Of a stretch of DNA of 64,000 nt, positions 4,616 to 13,207 are shown one piece after another; position 1 is the first letter of the stretch, and every line of letters begins with the position of its first letter. The position numbers and the translations under genes are program-made. The notes below the pieces were generated by a model. The model searched no databases, had not been told where the DNA came from, and saw only the letters and a list, made by a program, of their open reading frames with translations. Source of the DNA: Polaribacter sp. NJDZ03 (GTDB taxonomy: Bacteria > Bacteroidota > Bacteroidia > Flavobacteriales > Flavobacteriaceae); the NCBI RefSeq assembly GCF_019263805.1, contig NZ_CP079195.1:1181501-1245500 (forward strand), in the 5' to 3' direction.

Positions 4616-6139
4616 CTAAACCCAGTCTTTCGGGGTTTCTAATACTTTAATCAACCTTTCTTCTTCCGTGTTTTCTTCTGGTAGATGATTGTATTTCCAT
4701 TGTACAATTGGAGGCAAACTCATTAAAATGCTTTCTATTCTTCCGTTGGTTTTTAAGCCGAACAAAGTACCTCTATCGTGCACTAAATTAAACTCTACAT
4801 AACGTCCTCTTCTAATTTCTTGCCAATCTTTTTGTGCTCTGGTAAAAGTTAACTCTTTTCTTTTTTCTACAATAGGCACATAGCTTTCTAAAAAACTATT
4901 ACCAACTTCGGTAACAAAATTAAACCTGTCTTCTATAGAAAATTCTTCTGTTTCTTTTTGATAATCGAAAAACAAACCTCCAATTCCGCGTGCTTCATTT
5001 CTGTGAGCATTCCAAAAATATTCATCACACACTTTTTTAAACTTAGGATAAAAATCAGCATTATGTTTGTCGCAAGCAGTTTTACACGTTTGGTGAAAGT
5101 GTGTTGCATCTTCATCAAATAAATAATACGGTGTTAAATCTTGTCCGCCTCCAAACCATTGCGTAACAATATTCCCTTCTTCGTCATACATTTCAAAGTA
5201 GCGCCAATTCGCATGCACCGTTGGTATAAATGGATTTATAGGATGCAAAACCAAACTTAAACCACAAGCAAAGAAATTCCCTTCTTTTACCTTAAACTGC
5301 TTTCTTAAGGCTTGTGGCAATTCTCCAAAAACTTTAGAAATATTTACACCACCTTTTTCAAAAACCTTTCCGTTTTCAATCACACGAGTTCTTCCTCCTC
5401 CACCTTCTTCCCGCTTCCAAAGATCTTCTTGAAAGGTAGCAACACCGTCTACCTCTTCTAATTTAGAGGTAATAGTATCTTGTAATTTTTCTATATAACT
5501 GTAGAATTTATCTTTAAAACTGACTTTCACTTCCTGCAAGGTTTCTAAAACCTTGTAGGTGTTATTACTTTCCAAACTTTCTTCTTCTAGACTTACAAGG
5601 TTTTCAAAACCTTGTAAGTCTATATTCTTGTGCACAAAAACAAAATTCTCTAAATCATCAAAGATTGTAACAACCTTTTCAATATTAATAATATCCGAAT
5701 TTTCAGCAATTATATCTTTATAAGATGAAAAATTATATTTAGAAAAATCATTTACCAACTTGTGATTTTCTGGATTTTTATGAATATAAACAATCGTATT
5801 TTTTAAATATTCTTCTGAAGAAATCTGTTTCCTTTTAAAGTGTTTTTCGAATAAACTACCTGTTCTATATTGCTGATTATTAAATGCTTTAGCATACGCA
5901 TTTAATAAGTTTGAAAAAGATTGAGTTGCCTTTTCTCCATCAACATCAATTCTAACTAAAAAATGATAATGATTATTAAGCAAACAGTAGGATAGTATAG
6001 TAACTTGTTTAGAAAGGTGTTTTTTTACTAATGTAAGAAAATAACGCATGTTTTCATCATTCTCAAAAATAATTGCACCGTTAATTCCTCTATTATATAT
6101 ATGATAAAATTTATCTTTTTCTAAAACTTCTAACTTCAT
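4616..6139 (-). CDS. hemF: REP-associated tyrosine transposase fused to coproporphyrinogen III oxidase HemF
   Basis: One uninterrupted 507-codon frame encodes two unrelated proteins. Residues 1 to about 170 are a Y1/RAYT transposase: the HUH motif is His57-Tyr58-His59 (NNHYHFLVR) and the likely catalytic Tyr is Tyr118 in YIHKNPE. Residues 171-207 are a linker partly encoded by two REP palindromes. Residues 208-507 are a complete 300-residue oxygen-dependent HemF, with EEGGGGRTRV, HANWRYFEM, GGGQDLTPYYLF and RRGRYVEFNLVHDRGT all present. HemF oxidatively decarboxylates coproporphyrinogen III to protoporphyrinogen IX. The HemF part begins FKDKFYSY where relatives have MKDKF: the start codon is now TTT (5516-5518). 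HemF may be made as the chimera, or from an internal start such as GTG 5530. It is the only coproporphyrinogen oxidase gene in the window. Confidence 0.92.
   Translation of the reverse strand: MKLEVLEKDKFYHIYNRGINGAIIFENDENMRYFLTLVKKHLSKQVTILSYCLLNNHYHFLVRIDVDGEKATQSFSNLLNAYAKAFNNQQYRTGSLFEKHFKRKQISSEEYLKNTIVYIHKNPENHKLVNDFSKYNFSSYKDIIAENSDIINIEKVVTIFDDLENFVFVHKNIDLQGFENLVSLEEESLESNNTYKVLETLQEVKVSFKDKFYSYIEKLQDTITSKLEEVDGVATFQEDLWKREEGGGGRTRVIENGKVFEKGGVNISKVFGELPQALRKQFKVKEGNFFACGLSLVLHPINPFIPTVHANWRYFEMYDEEGNIVTQWFGGGQDLTPYYLFDEDATHFHQTCKTACDKHNADFYPKFKKVCDEYFWNAHRNEARGIGGLFFDYQKETEEFSIEDRFNFVTEVGNSFLESYVPIVEKRKELTFTRAQKDWQEIRRGRYVEFNLVHDRGTLFGLKTNGRIESILMSLPPIVQWKYNHLPEENTEEERLIKVLETPKDWV
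5533..5559. repeat. REP palindrome inside the RAYT-HemF linker
   Basis: A 27-nt imperfect palindrome with 12-nt arms (CCTGCAAGGTTT and AAACCTTGTAGG, one mismatch) and a 3-nt loop. On the minus strand it is translated as part of [10 protein letters not shown]. It carries the GTAG tetranucleotide often found beside REP stems. Its 5' edge is 15 nt from the lost hemF start codon. Confidence 0.85.
5588..5622. repeat. Perfect 35-bp REP-like palindrome inside the RAYT coding region
   Basis: The sequence is a perfect inverted repeat centred on C5605 with 17-nt arms, sharing the core ACAAGGTTTT/AAAACCTTGT with the other REP copies. It is translated in frame (about LQGFENLVSL), so it has been maintained without introducing a stop. 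Confidence 0.85.
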
Positions 6140-6154
6140 AATTATTTTATTTCT

Positions 6155-6273
6155 CCTGCAAGGTTAAAAAAAACTTATAGGTCTGATTTGCTATTTTACA
6201 CCAACAAGGTTTTAAACTGTTATTGGTGGTTGGTTGAATATATATACCTACAAGGTTCTGAAAACCTTGCAAG
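6155..6273. repeat. Cluster of REP-like palindromes upstream of the RAYT-hemF gene
   Basis: Three copies related to the linker REPs lie in the leader: a decayed one at 6155-6181, a partial one at 6199-6228, and a well-preserved one at 6247-6273 (CCTACAAGGTT...AAAACCTTGCAAG). A further half-copy (GGAAACCTTTTAAGGTG) follows to 6297. With the copies at 5533-5622 they bracket the transposase domain, as expected for a RAYT mobilising its own REPs. Confidence 0.75.
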
Positions 6274-6298
6274 ATGTTCTGGAAACCTTTTAAGGTGT

Positions 6299-8542: not shown

Positions 8543-8589
8543 ATAGCTTTTTGCTATTCGCTTTTAGCTTTTGGCTTTGGCTTTTAGCT
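8543..8589. repeat. 7-nt-period repeat array (TAGCTTT-type), left of four-helix gene
   Basis: The sequence reads as degenerate heptamers: TAGCTTT, TTGCTAT, TCGCTTT, TAGCTTT, TGGCTTT, GGCTTTT. It lies between hemE and the four-helix-bundle gene and is inverted relative to the array at 8951-8985. Confidence 0.7.
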
Positions 8590-8940
8590 GTTTTTTATCG
8601 TATTTATTAATCCATTAATCATTTTACCTTCTTTTTCTATCAGCTCGAAAACGTATTTCAATTCTTCAGAATTTATTAAATTTAACTCTTGAATAATAAT
8701 TAATTGAGTTTCAACCTCGAAAAGAGAACCAATTGCAATTTCCAAAAACCTTTTAAATTCTACTTCACTATTTCTACTTGAGCCTTCAGCAATATTTGAA
8801 GGAATAGACACTGCTGCTCTTGTTATTTGACTTTTCAAACCAAATTTTTCATCAGAAGGTAATTTTTGAGCTATCTTATAAATTTCTTTGACAAGAACTA
8901 TACCTTGTTCCCAAATCTTTAATTTTCTAAAATTTCTCAT
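8584..8940 (-). CDS. Four-helix-bundle protein (23S rRNA intervening-sequence/Avd-like family)
   Basis: The 118-residue protein begins MRNFRKLKIWEQGIVLVKEI and contains SQITRAAVSIPSNIAEGSSR, the signature of the family named after proteins encoded in 23S rRNA intervening sequences; relatives form helical-bundle pentamers and include the Avd accessory protein of diversity-generating retroelements. Here there is no rRNA and no reverse transcriptase nearby. The gene is an unrelated insert between hemL and hemE and is bounded by inverted 7-nt repeat arrays, suggesting it arrived with them. Its function is unknown. Confidence 0.85.
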   Translation of the reverse strand: MRNFRKLKIWEQGIVLVKEIYKIAQKLPSDEKFGLKSQITRAAVSIPSNIAEGSSRNSEVEFKRFLEIAIGSLFEVETQLIIIQELNLINSEELKYVFELIEKEGKMINGLINTIKNS

Positions 8941-10257: not shown

Positions 10258-10277
10258 GTTTATAGATTTTTGTCTGG

Positions 10278-10322
10278 TCGAGCGCAGTCGAGACCTTTAT
10301 AAAACCTCTCGACTGCGCTCGA
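10278..10322. repeat. Long GC-richer inverted repeat between hemB and hemL
   Basis: Arms 10278-10293 (TCGAGCGCAGTCGAGA) and 10307-10322 are perfect 16-bp complements with a 13-nt loop. Its GC content stands out in AT-rich surroundings. It lies in the hemB-hemL gap and could act as an RNA processing or attenuation stem, or be a dispersed palindrome of the type common in Flavobacteriaceae. Confidence 0.8.
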
Positions 10323-10337
10323 GGTGACATTGTAACT

Positions 10338-11303: not shown

Positions 11304-11617
11304 TTCTCTATTTTTTCTCCTACAAAGCTTCAAAAAACCTTGTAGGTGTTTTTCTTTTCCTGCAAGGTTTCCAAAACCTTGTAGGTGATTAACTTTTGTA
11401 ATTTATACCTACAAGGTTCTAAAAACCTTGCAGGATCGTTGCAGAATGTTTGTGAACTTGCAATATGCGTTAAGAACTTCTTCCGTTCTAACATCTGCTG
11501 ATATTCTTAACTTTTTTTCTTTTCTAGAAAAAGATATCGTGGAAAGCCCTTTAAAACGCTTAAATAATTATCTTTTTTAGTATCTAAAAAGGTATATTCC
11601 TTATAGGAAAGATCTCT
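11304..11617. other. Intergenic region between hemCD and hemB with REPs and a possible 54-codon frame
   Basis: The 314-nt gap contains three REP palindromes (listed separately) next to hemB. On the minus strand a 54-codon ATG frame (11494-11330) runs through two of the REPs; it has no recognisable domain and ends with REP-encoded [10 protein letters not shown] and TYKVF. Directly after the hemCD stop, the same frame stays open for 38 codons (to about 11504), including a stretch reading EYTFLDTKKDNYLSVLK. This may be a decayed gene or chance in AT-rich DNA. Confidence 0.4.
11319..11434. repeat. Three REP palindromes in the hemB leader
   Basis: Copies at 11319-11346, 11359-11385 and 11408-11434 share the CCTACAAGGTT...AACCTTGCAGG/GTAGG core with those around the RAYT-hemF gene 5 kb away. 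Each is a 27-28-nt imperfect palindrome. In the hemB transcript they would form consecutive hairpins just before the start codon. Confidence 0.85.
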
Positions 11618-13207
11618 TTATCTTGAATAATATAAGTTTACTAATTCTAACAAACTATCTACACTTGGCATGTTTGCTACTTCTACTTTTTCAAAATATT
11701 TTCTAGCTTCTACCGCTGTTGTTTCTCCAATACAAAAAGCAACTCTATCTGGGTTATTTTCTTCTAAATAGCTTTCAATTCCTGATGGGCTATAAAATAA
11801 AACTCCAGAAACTTCATCTTCAATTTTTTCTGAACTTAGCATTGTTTTGTATGCTTCTACTTCTGTTACAGAAATATCGTTCGCTTTTAAAGAAGCTGGT
11901 AAAACATCTAATCTTAAGTTACTACAAAAATAAGTTACTTTTTTAGTATCTAATTCTTCTGCTAAATACGCTGCTAATTTCTTAGCATTTTTTGCAGCGT
12001 GCGCAACTTTACCAATTCTGTTTTCAATTAGTTTTTTAGTTCTTCTACCTACACAGTAAATGTTTTTAAAATTCATTTCATCTCTTGTGAAAGAATTTAA
12101 AAGTGCTTCTACTCCATTCTGACTAGTGATAATAACGTTTTCTATTTCGTTTTTAATCACTTTAGCCGGAATTCTATTAAAACGGATTTTAATAAAATCG
12201 CTATCTTTTACTCCAATAGTTTCTGATATTGTTTCCTTTTGAAGTTCTGAAAGCTTTTTAGTAGAAAAGATATTTTGCAAAGGAGCAACCGTTTCTTCAT
12301 CTTCTGCCATTAACTCTTTTCCTCCTCTATTAATTACATAGTCTGCACAATCTTTAGCCAAAAATTTATGGCTACCAACTTTTGCAGTTTTAGCAACAGA
12401 AATCTTTTTAGAACCATCTTTTTTTAATAAAACACCTCTAAAATTTATCTCTTCTGTTTTTCCATCTATGTAAGCAACAGCTCCTATAGGTGCCGTACAA
12501 CCACCTTCTAAAAGATGTAAGAACTCACGTTCTATTGTGGTACAAATTTCTGTTTCTTTATGGTTTAATTGTTCACAAGCATCTAAAGAATACTCATCTT
12601 TTTGTAAACAAGTAACCATCATTGCACCTTGTCCTGGTGCAGGAGTCATCCAAGAAAGACTAATTGCGTCTTCTGGTTTTTTTCCAATACGATATAAACC
12701 TGCAGCTGCAAAAATAGCTCCATCCCAAGTTTCACTTTCTTCTAACTTCTGTAAACGAGTATTTACATTTCCTCTTAAACCTTCTACTTTATGTGTTGGA
12801 TATCTATCTAACCACATTGCTTTTCTACGCAAACTTCCGGTTGCAATAATCCCTTCTGGTTGTCCAAAAAATTCTTCTGTTCCTTTAAGTAATAAAACAT
12901 CAGAATAATCATCACGTCTTAAAACTGCAGCTTGTATAATTCCTTCTGGTAAAACGGTAGGTACATCTTTAAGAGAATGTACTGCAATATCAATATCACC
13001 ATTTAACATAGCAACATCTAAATTTTTAGTAAAGACACCTGTAACCCCTAATTCATATAAGGGTTTGTCTAAAACAATATCTCCCAAAGATTTTATAGGA
13101 ACAATTACAGACTCATAGCCTAATTCCTTTAATTCTTTGCGCACTTTATTAGCTTGCCAAAGCGCTAATTCGCTATCACGAGTTCCTATTTTTATTATTT
13201 TCTGCAT
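11618..13207 (-). CDS. hemC: Fused hydroxymethylbilane synthase-uroporphyrinogen III synthase HemCD
   Basis: Residues 1 to about 305 are porphobilinogen deaminase: KIGTRDSELALWQA at the N-terminus, VHSLKDVPT near 77-84, TGSLRRKAMW near 123-132, GLRGNVNTRL near 143-152 and the dipyrromethane-cofactor Cys237 in LEGGCTAPIG. Residues about 310-529 match the weakly conserved HemD fold: an SQNGVEALLN helix, the CVGRRTKKLIE segment and the FYSPSGIESYLEE segment. A single polypeptide would thus turn porphobilinogen into uroporphyrinogen III, passing on the unstable hydroxymethylbilane. No separate hemD is seen. It begins 11 nt after the hemA stop, so both are surely co-transcribed. Confidence 0.93.
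   Translation of the reverse strand: MQKIIKIGTRDSELALWQANKVRKELKELGYESVIVPIKSLGDIVLDKPLYELGVTGVFTKNLDVAMLNGDIDIAVHSLKDVPTVLPEGIIQAAVLRRDDYSDVLLLKGTEEFFGQPEGIIATGSLRRKAMWLDRYPTHKVEGLRGNVNTRLQKLEESETWDGAIFAAAGLYRIGKKPEDAISLSWMTPAPGQGAMMVTCLQKDEYSLDACEQLNHKETEICTTIEREFLHLLEGGCTAPIGAVAYIDGKTEEINFRGVLLKKDGSKKISVAKTAKVGSHKFLAKDCADYVINRGGKELMAEDEETVAPLQNIFSTKKLSELQKETISETIGVKDSDFIKIRFNRIPAKVIKNEIENVIITSQNGVEALLNSFTRDEMNFKNIYCVGRRTKKLIENRIGKVAHAAKNAKKLAAYLAEELDTKKVTYFCSNLRLDVLPASLKANDISVTEVEAYKTMLSSEKIEDEVSGVLFYSPSGIESYLEENNPDRVAFCIGETTAVEARKYFEKVEVANMPSVDSLLELVNLYYSR

Follow-up and report, generated by a model that had tools for sequence, protein, structure and literature searches.

The window, a stretch of 64,000 nucleotides of DNA from Polaribacter sp. 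NJDZ03, carries a gene in which a REP-associated tyrosine transposase (RAYT) and HemF, the oxygen-dependent coproporphyrinogen oxidase, are read as one protein. The gene is best explained as part of a hemF-anchored REP-RAYT system, in which a working HemF carries a REP-processing domain that would be hard to delete; we give this reading a probability of roughly 0.6. At the level of sequence comparison, the chimera, its spread, the linkage of its RAYT to hemF, the relaxed HemF starts, and the palindromic linkers that match the REPs of the genome are established. The parts of the gene are the following.

4616-6139, minus strand: RAYT-HemF fusion gene, 507 codons plus stop, with ATG at 6139, the stop at 4616-4618, and no internal stop.
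5624-6139, minus strand: RAYT (TnpA-REP, HUH/Y1) domain, residues 1-172, placed by the NF047646 match and by conservation over 151 fused rows.
5963-5971, minus strand: HUH motif His57-Tyr58-His59, placed by the alignment of 151 fused rows.
5786-5788, minus strand: catalytic tyrosine Tyr118, placed by the same alignment of 151 fused rows.
5519-5623, minus strand: inter-domain linker, residues 173-207, mostly coded by two REP palindromes.
4619-5518, minus strand: HemF (oxygen-dependent coproporphyrinogen oxidase) domain, residues 208-507.
5516-5518, minus strand: TTT (Phe208), at the position that is ATG in nearly all unfused hemF genes examined.
5528-5530, minus strand: in-frame GTG, a candidate internal start, 4 codons 5' of the HemF start position.

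An earlier note on this DNA had described a 507-codon RAYT-HemF frame, which exists exactly at 4616-6139 on the minus strand. Its claim that a RAYT with His57, His59, and Tyr118 is fused to a complete HemF was borne out by family matches and alignment, and the loss of the RAYT stop and the change of the HemF ATG to TTT at Phe208 were both confirmed. PF01218 (Coprogen_oxidas) covers residues 212-506 of the fusion with 443 bits (E 4e-133; Pfam cut-off 31.8). The HemF model NF003727 scores 421 bits against a cut-off of 297, which marks a full-length HemF, and human CPOX (2aex) matches the HemF part with an E value of 3e-94. The NCBIfam model of the REP-associated tyrosine transposase, NF047646, covers residues 20-138 with 50.4 bits (E 2e-13). 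This score lies below the curated naming cut-off of 80, and the fusion is therefore assigned only to the wider RAYT family and not to the equivalog. All 79 aligned fusion proteins reach NF047646 at E 0.001 or better. His57 is kept in 149 of 151 fused rows, and His59 and Tyr118 in all 151; these rows comprise 31 loci and 120 database proteins, which overlap and are partly near-identical. For 31 pairs of fused loci, drawn from 28 of the 31 and kept where dS was below 1.5 in both domains, dN/dS has a median of 0.19 in RAYT and of 0.08 in HemF. Judged by these ratios, the RAYT and HemF domains are both under purifying selection.

The fusion occurs in several genera. All of the 120 best protein matches listed, after 8000 candidates had been scored, are RAYT-HemF fusions. 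A full-length fusion is present in at least 13 of 299 Flavobacteriaceae genomes, an evenly drawn sample in which the search gives the best matches and a strongly diverged fusion could escape. Within the window's genus, 8 of 97 genomes carry it, and the seven others are full-length and 73-79% identical to the fusion of the window. Among the named carriers are Winogradskyella, Flavivirga, Hanstruepera, and Algibacter. An artefact of sequencing or assembly, or a decaying accident that yields no product, would fit the presence of the fusion in a minority of genomes and the RAYT score below the NCBIfam naming cut-off. Such an origin is highly improbable, because the same fusion is found across many assemblies and genera, both of its domains are under purifying selection, and the catalytic residues are intact.

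Long proteins with a RAYT domain were searched for with the RAYT part of L090, the most divergent fusion, against proteins of fusion length. Counted by eye, 118 of the best 120 of the 171 proteins found carry PF01218. The two without it are P0154, a partial protein with no domain, and P0254. P0254 (371 aa) consists of a RAYT, a REP-like linker peptide (DLQGPLREDLAG), and then a GNAT acetyltransferase, which is a possible second partner of the same fusion route. Among plasmids, 59 records match, none over more than 80% of the query, and the eight listed match in the HemF part alone. Other hemF fusions, suggested by long stop-to-stop frames in the 299 genomes, were rejected as candidates after three of the six fetched stretches had been read and proved to be ordinary separate hemF genes. 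The earlier note had stated that no RAYT-HemF protein was described. For publications, a search of the open-access literature that paired RAYT with hemF or with coproporphyrinogen oxidase, and that also covered fusions of RAYT, found no paper on such a protein; in the passages found by a term search of the RAYT/REP papers PMC2817692, PMC3733652, and PMC3116915, hemF is absent. The statement does not hold for databases, where public pipelines label some proteins with both names, and the same fusion stands behind entries titled 'coproporphyrinogen III oxidase/REP element-mobilizing transposase RayT'.

REP palindromes lie both inside the coding sequence and upstream of it. Four of them are placed in the window as follows, with no strand assigned.

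5588-5622: REP palindrome 1 in the coding sequence, with 17-nt arms and a 1-nt loop, read as DLQGFENLVSL.
5533-5559: REP palindrome 2 in the coding sequence, CCTACAAGGTTTTAGAAACCTTGCAGG on the gene strand, read as TYKVLETLQ.
6246-6274: REP copy upstream of the RAYT start, of the CAAGGTT type found in the linker; repeat family D1.
6154-6182: degenerate REP copy directly upstream of the RAYT start; repeat family D1, inverted pair I4.

The hairpin of the window's linker beats 100 of 100 synonymous recodings, with a folding z of -4.5 for the linker RNA. In 28 of 31 linkers, at most 5 of 100 synonymous recodings reached the folding energy of the native 120 nt preceding HemF; with the same recoding test, this was the case for 1 of 31 control stretches inside hemF. 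A stricter palindrome test (10 of 200 or fewer) was passed by 22 of the 31 linkers. Six of the nine linkers that failed it are of the RPAR type, seen in Winogradskyella, in which the stem is mismatched or shortened. Fused lineages differ in the sequence of the linker palindrome. The residues coded by the arms covary, Q or R going with A, V, E, or L (73 cases) and S with T, K, or I (35 cases) without any cross-combination; the rows of this count are redundant, the residue groups were defined after viewing the data, and 11 cases with other first residues were left uncounted. At 15 of 27 loci examined, REP-like palindromes lie before the RAYT as well as within the linker. The upstream and linker types are the same at 12 of these 15 loci, mixed at 2 (L034 and L040), and different at 1 (L077).

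Related REPs are dispersed in the genome. The REP core has 46 forward matches with at most two mismatches in the window's own genome, against 0 for the reversed control, and 22 of 24 REP sites looked at lie outside ORFs of at least 100 aa. Among 97 genomes of the genus, the median REP count is 20 in those with the fusion (8 genomes), 2.5 in those with another RAYT only (14), and 0 in those with neither (75). These comparisons gave p values of 0.01 and 2e-6 (Mann-Whitney, kinship ignored), with the larger count of the two strands taken for each genome and incomplete genomes included. Four of the 75 genomes with neither kind of RAYT have 7-17 REPs, and the top count of the genus sample, 37, is that of the unfused genome G356. 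In 16 of the 17 fused genomes that were typed, the linker REP belongs to the type that prevails across the genome (Fisher 0.002, kinship ignored). The typing covered 17 of 20 fused genomes, as three linkers are of neither type, and L039 was used for L086, which lies on the same contig. All 12 genomes with CAAGG linkers hold more CAAGG than TCAGG REPs, and four of the five with TCAGG linkers show the reverse, the exception being G197 (3 vs 5). Genome G019, with a TCAGG linker, holds 6 TCAGG REPs and 0 CAAGG REPs.

The strong folding of the window's linker RNA makes a regulatory role possible. Domestication by the host is an explanation of this kind, according to which the RAYT domain no longer spreads REPs and regulates hemF, for example through contact with the hairpins that REPs form in its own gene or transcript, or by bringing HemF to REP sites. 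It draws on the strong linker hairpins, kept beyond the need of the peptide in 28 of 31 linkers, on the kept catalytic residues of RAYT, and on passages of PMC8049555 that describe RAYTs as domesticated proteins with an exact function unknown. We consider it improbable, because REP numbers track RAYT, which fits continued or recent REP propagation, and because the fusion is sporadic among close relatives, contrary to a general need of the host.

The RAYT of the fusion belongs to a lineage linked to hemF. The 299 genomes gave 38 RAYT matches (threshold E 1e-38). Of these, hemF is joined to 13 and follows another 7 on the same strand; the remaining 18 lie elsewhere, that is, on another contig or distant on the same contig, with two such genomes giving no HemF. 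This linkage was found with a hemF-fused query, which a quite different kind of hemF-linked RAYT would escape. In the seven upstream cases, about 20 nt to 2.7 kb separate the matched stretches of RAYT and HemF. A tree of 54 RAYTs separates 42 hemF-linked sequences (31 fused, 10 adjacent, and 1 other in the same hem locus) from 12 elsewhere by one branch with a support of 100/99; the 12 include L096 from outside the family, and 7 of the 18 elsewhere matches, having no locus, are absent. About 6 changes of the fused state are required on this tree, and well supported branches force 4 of them. A larger earlier RAYT tree was built with half of the 120 fused database proteins and part of 120 solo ones; one of its groups holds 87 of 88 fused proteins, 29 solo proteins of unknown context, and 1 hemF-adjacent protein, and the fused L090 falls outside the main fused group. 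The HemF trees require 16 changes of this state, of which no fewer than 4 to 5 are forced; the later tree has 98 rows, with duplicates, the distant L075, and also L047 omitted, and the earlier one is without 10 unfused rows. By the RAYT and HemF trees together, RAYT and hemF are long-time neighbours, and both fusion and separation took place repeatedly.

The loci of relatives, which the earlier note had proposed to compare, show fused, adjacent, and unlinked states of RAYT and hemF. Its view that the element had landed on hemF in this genome is not supported in that form, as the RAYT lineage is old at hemF, is partly a separate gene, and went through several changes of state. At L065, the RAYT stop TGA overlaps the hemF ATG (ATGA), and its close relative P0024 reads straight through. 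In G205, the RAYT and hemF genes are 5 bases apart. G356 (L127) is without RAYT but retains a REP and the remains of a linker, and its HemF start position reads ATA. Its hemF is apparently a former fusion from which the transposase was lost.

Transfer of the whole fusion between genera was rejected as the sole explanation, because the fused HemFs of the genus group among unfused congeners with a support of 100. G019 also argues against it, since its HemF is that of the window's genus and its RAYT, linker, and REPs belong to the other type; the RAYT of G019 is unplaced in the tree of 54 RAYTs. A mobile unit of RAYT and the hemF 5' end was considered as well. Upstream of the intact fusion of G026 (L091), there is a clear degenerate copy of the RAYT end, the linker, and the hemF 5' end (E 1e-26), and Flavivirga amylovorans (L035) has a weaker upstream relic of the hemF 5' end, whose E value of 9e-5 is near noise (reversed control 0.007). 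In contrast, the other 27 upstream stretches examined, a set that leaves out the fused loci L042 and L044, hold no RAYT or hemF relic. An upstream match in L045, first taken as a piece of hemF, belongs to another gene.

The start codon of HemF is relaxed in the fusions. In a set of 101 distinct hemF genes, ATG stands at the start in 10 of the 31 fused ones, in all 10 that have a RAYT as a separate gene upstream, and in 57 of the 60 that have no RAYT. The ATG is lost in 21 of 31 fused against 3 of 70 unfused genes (Fisher p 2e-11, kinship ignored), and the state of the start codon changes 7 times among fused genes on the HemF tree. The three non-ATG starts among the 60 genes without RAYT are those of L067 (GTG), the former fusion of G356, and the distant sequence L075. 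The unfused hemF of G270, outside the 101-gene set, starts with TTG. As L067 and G270 are unfused, a lost ATG alone does not prove fusion. The frequency of the loss in fusions relative to unfused genes suggests that the fusion itself is probably the HemF product.

An internal HemF start in part of the family is the main rival of the anchored system, and a host regulatory role is the second. Under this main rival, two products would be made: HemF would come mainly from an internal GTG, TTG, or kept ATG, the fusion would be a by-product, minor or without use, and a shared operon would be all that connects RAYT with HemF. The window offers GTG at -4 and TTG at -7 and -19 codons as possible internal starts. 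With this GTG and with the ATG kept in 10 of 31 fusions, a separate HemF can arise in some of them, and the ATGA overlap of L065, a close neighbour state, fits coupled translation of two proteins. However, relaxation of the start in fusions, next to an ATG kept in every hemF with a separate upstream RAYT, is unexpected if an internal start were the main route. Moreover, the fused locus L039 has no in-frame ATG, GTG, or TTG between Tyr118 and HemF codon 25. We regard two products as an unlikely explanation.

The genome of Polaribacter sp. NJDZ03 consists of one contig of 4.08 Mb and has a single HemF. A second intact hemF, which the earlier note had named as a possible objection, was looked for, and HemF occurs once. 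The same note took HemF for the only coproporphyrinogen oxidase, which is incorrect, as HemN is found above its curated cut-off (434 bits) at C1:1823308. HemN is above the cut-off in 19 of 20 fused genomes tested. The exception is G019, which is 93% complete and whose fused HemF thus appears to be its sole coproporphyrinogen oxidase. With hemN in the own genome and in 19 of the 20 fused ones, HemF need not be essential. The earlier argument that the fusion must be functional, or else an internal start must be used, is weakened by the genome's hemN; it retains support from the loss of the ATG across fusions and from G019.

Family matches identify hemE, hemL (aminotransferase class III), hemB, a hemC-hemD fusion, and hemA as neighbours of the fusion gene. 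HemC (porphobilinogen deaminase) and HemD (uroporphyrinogen-III synthase) form a single frame of 529 aa at 11618-13207 on the minus strand, a second fusion of the heme locus. A REPIN-like inverted pair of REPs of the same type is located at 11358-11435, between hemB and hemC-hemD. A long inverted repeat of a kind different from the REPs lies at 10271-10329, between hemL and hemB. An S23 (23S rRNA-intervening-sequence) protein is encoded at 8584-8940 on the minus strand, between hemE and hemL, and is flanked by imperfect inverted repeats. A Bacteroidetes-type promoter pattern gave 7 matches against about 8 expected, none of them 5' of the fusion gene. The RAYT of the fusion is not an amplified multicopy insertion sequence, as the genome holds 1 full-length copy, 1 RAYT at 48% identity, and 1 short match. 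The 48% identical RAYT (L002 / L095, C1:2600118-2600666) is far from the fusion. Translation of the stretch 3' of this second RAYT suggests a palindrome of different sequence, so that a second REP-RAYT pair may exist in the genome.

For the preferred reading, a REP-RAYT system anchored by hemF, the following course can be proposed. An old RAYT lineage of Flavobacteriaceae is located 5' of hemF, with its own REP palindromes on both sides. The comparison of loci shows that loss of the RAYT stop brings RAYT, a REP-encoded linker, and HemF into one frame, since the REPs downstream are free of stops in frames that fit. Most likely, the product is a single polypeptide of about 58 kDa, in which the C-terminal HemF would work as usual. 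The N-terminal HUH/Tyr domain, with its conserved catalytic residues and matching REPs, would still nick and rejoin single-stranded REPs. Where the HemF start is lost, deletion of the transposase start would abolish HemF expression, and the RAYT would thereby be shielded from loss. The fusion would also tie the RAYT dose to hemF. The loss of RAYT in G356 and the minority of fused genomes indicate that the anchoring is not absolute. It can also be hypothesized, as a doubtful further reading, that RAYT-HemF is a bifunctional protein with feedback. Its RAYT domain would recognise the REP hairpins of its own linker in the single-stranded gene or mRNA and would couple REP propagation with hemF expression, and hence with oxygen-dependent heme synthesis; the REPs would serve as transposase substrate, RNA structure, and protein linker.

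The fusion in marine flavobacteria suggests one way in which such transposases stay in genomes for a long time. A RAYT lineage tied to one metabolic gene and repeatedly fused to it leads to a testable proposal, persistence by translational anchoring. A palindromic mobile repeat acts here as a reusable, frame-compatible protein linker, and the possible second partner, the acetyltransferase of P0254, indicates that REPs may be a more general route of gene fusion. The RAYT-HemF family can also be viewed as a natural experiment in start-codon relaxation.

The fusion shares features with the RAYT or TnpA-REP systems (REPtrons). RAYTs are characterized in passages of PMC8049555 as single-copy, vertically inherited proteins whose exact function is unknown. 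According to a part of PMC8266576, the TnpA-REP of E. coli cleaves single-stranded REP in vitro and requires a GTAG motif. The E. coli protein (PDB 4ER8) matches the fusion weakly in sequence (E 0.068), with the HxH and Tyr regions aligned. Like these systems, the fusion has the HUH and Tyr residues, REPs on both sides, and related REPs dispersed in the genome, and it is not amplified. Unlike them, it runs on into a metabolic enzyme, its downstream REPs are in-frame coding sequence, and its lineage is bound to a single gene of the host.

Quentin et al. 2018 (PMC6006769) report, in passages on subclass 2.4, that REPs occur in frame within the transposase genes, generally between HUH and Tyr, and they dropped unexpectedly long proteins as fusions or annotation errors. 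As in this subclass, which these passages place in Bacteroidetes among others, the REPs of the window lie inside the transposase ORF and keep the frame; unlike there, they follow residue 172 as a linker and are not situated between residues 59 and 118. Subclass 2.6 of Bacteroidetes is given in the same source with the motifs NH[LIV]H and YIH[QN]NP; the fusions carry NH[YF]H and, for the most part, Y[IV]H[KR]NP. The C-terminal part differs from standard HemF in that it is without an ATG of its own and follows a 207-residue N-terminal transposase domain and linker. It resembles HemF in being a complete 300-residue enzyme that scores far over the cut-off and is encoded in a hem cluster, and its conservation suggests that it would catalyse the oxidative decarboxylation of coproporphyrinogen III.
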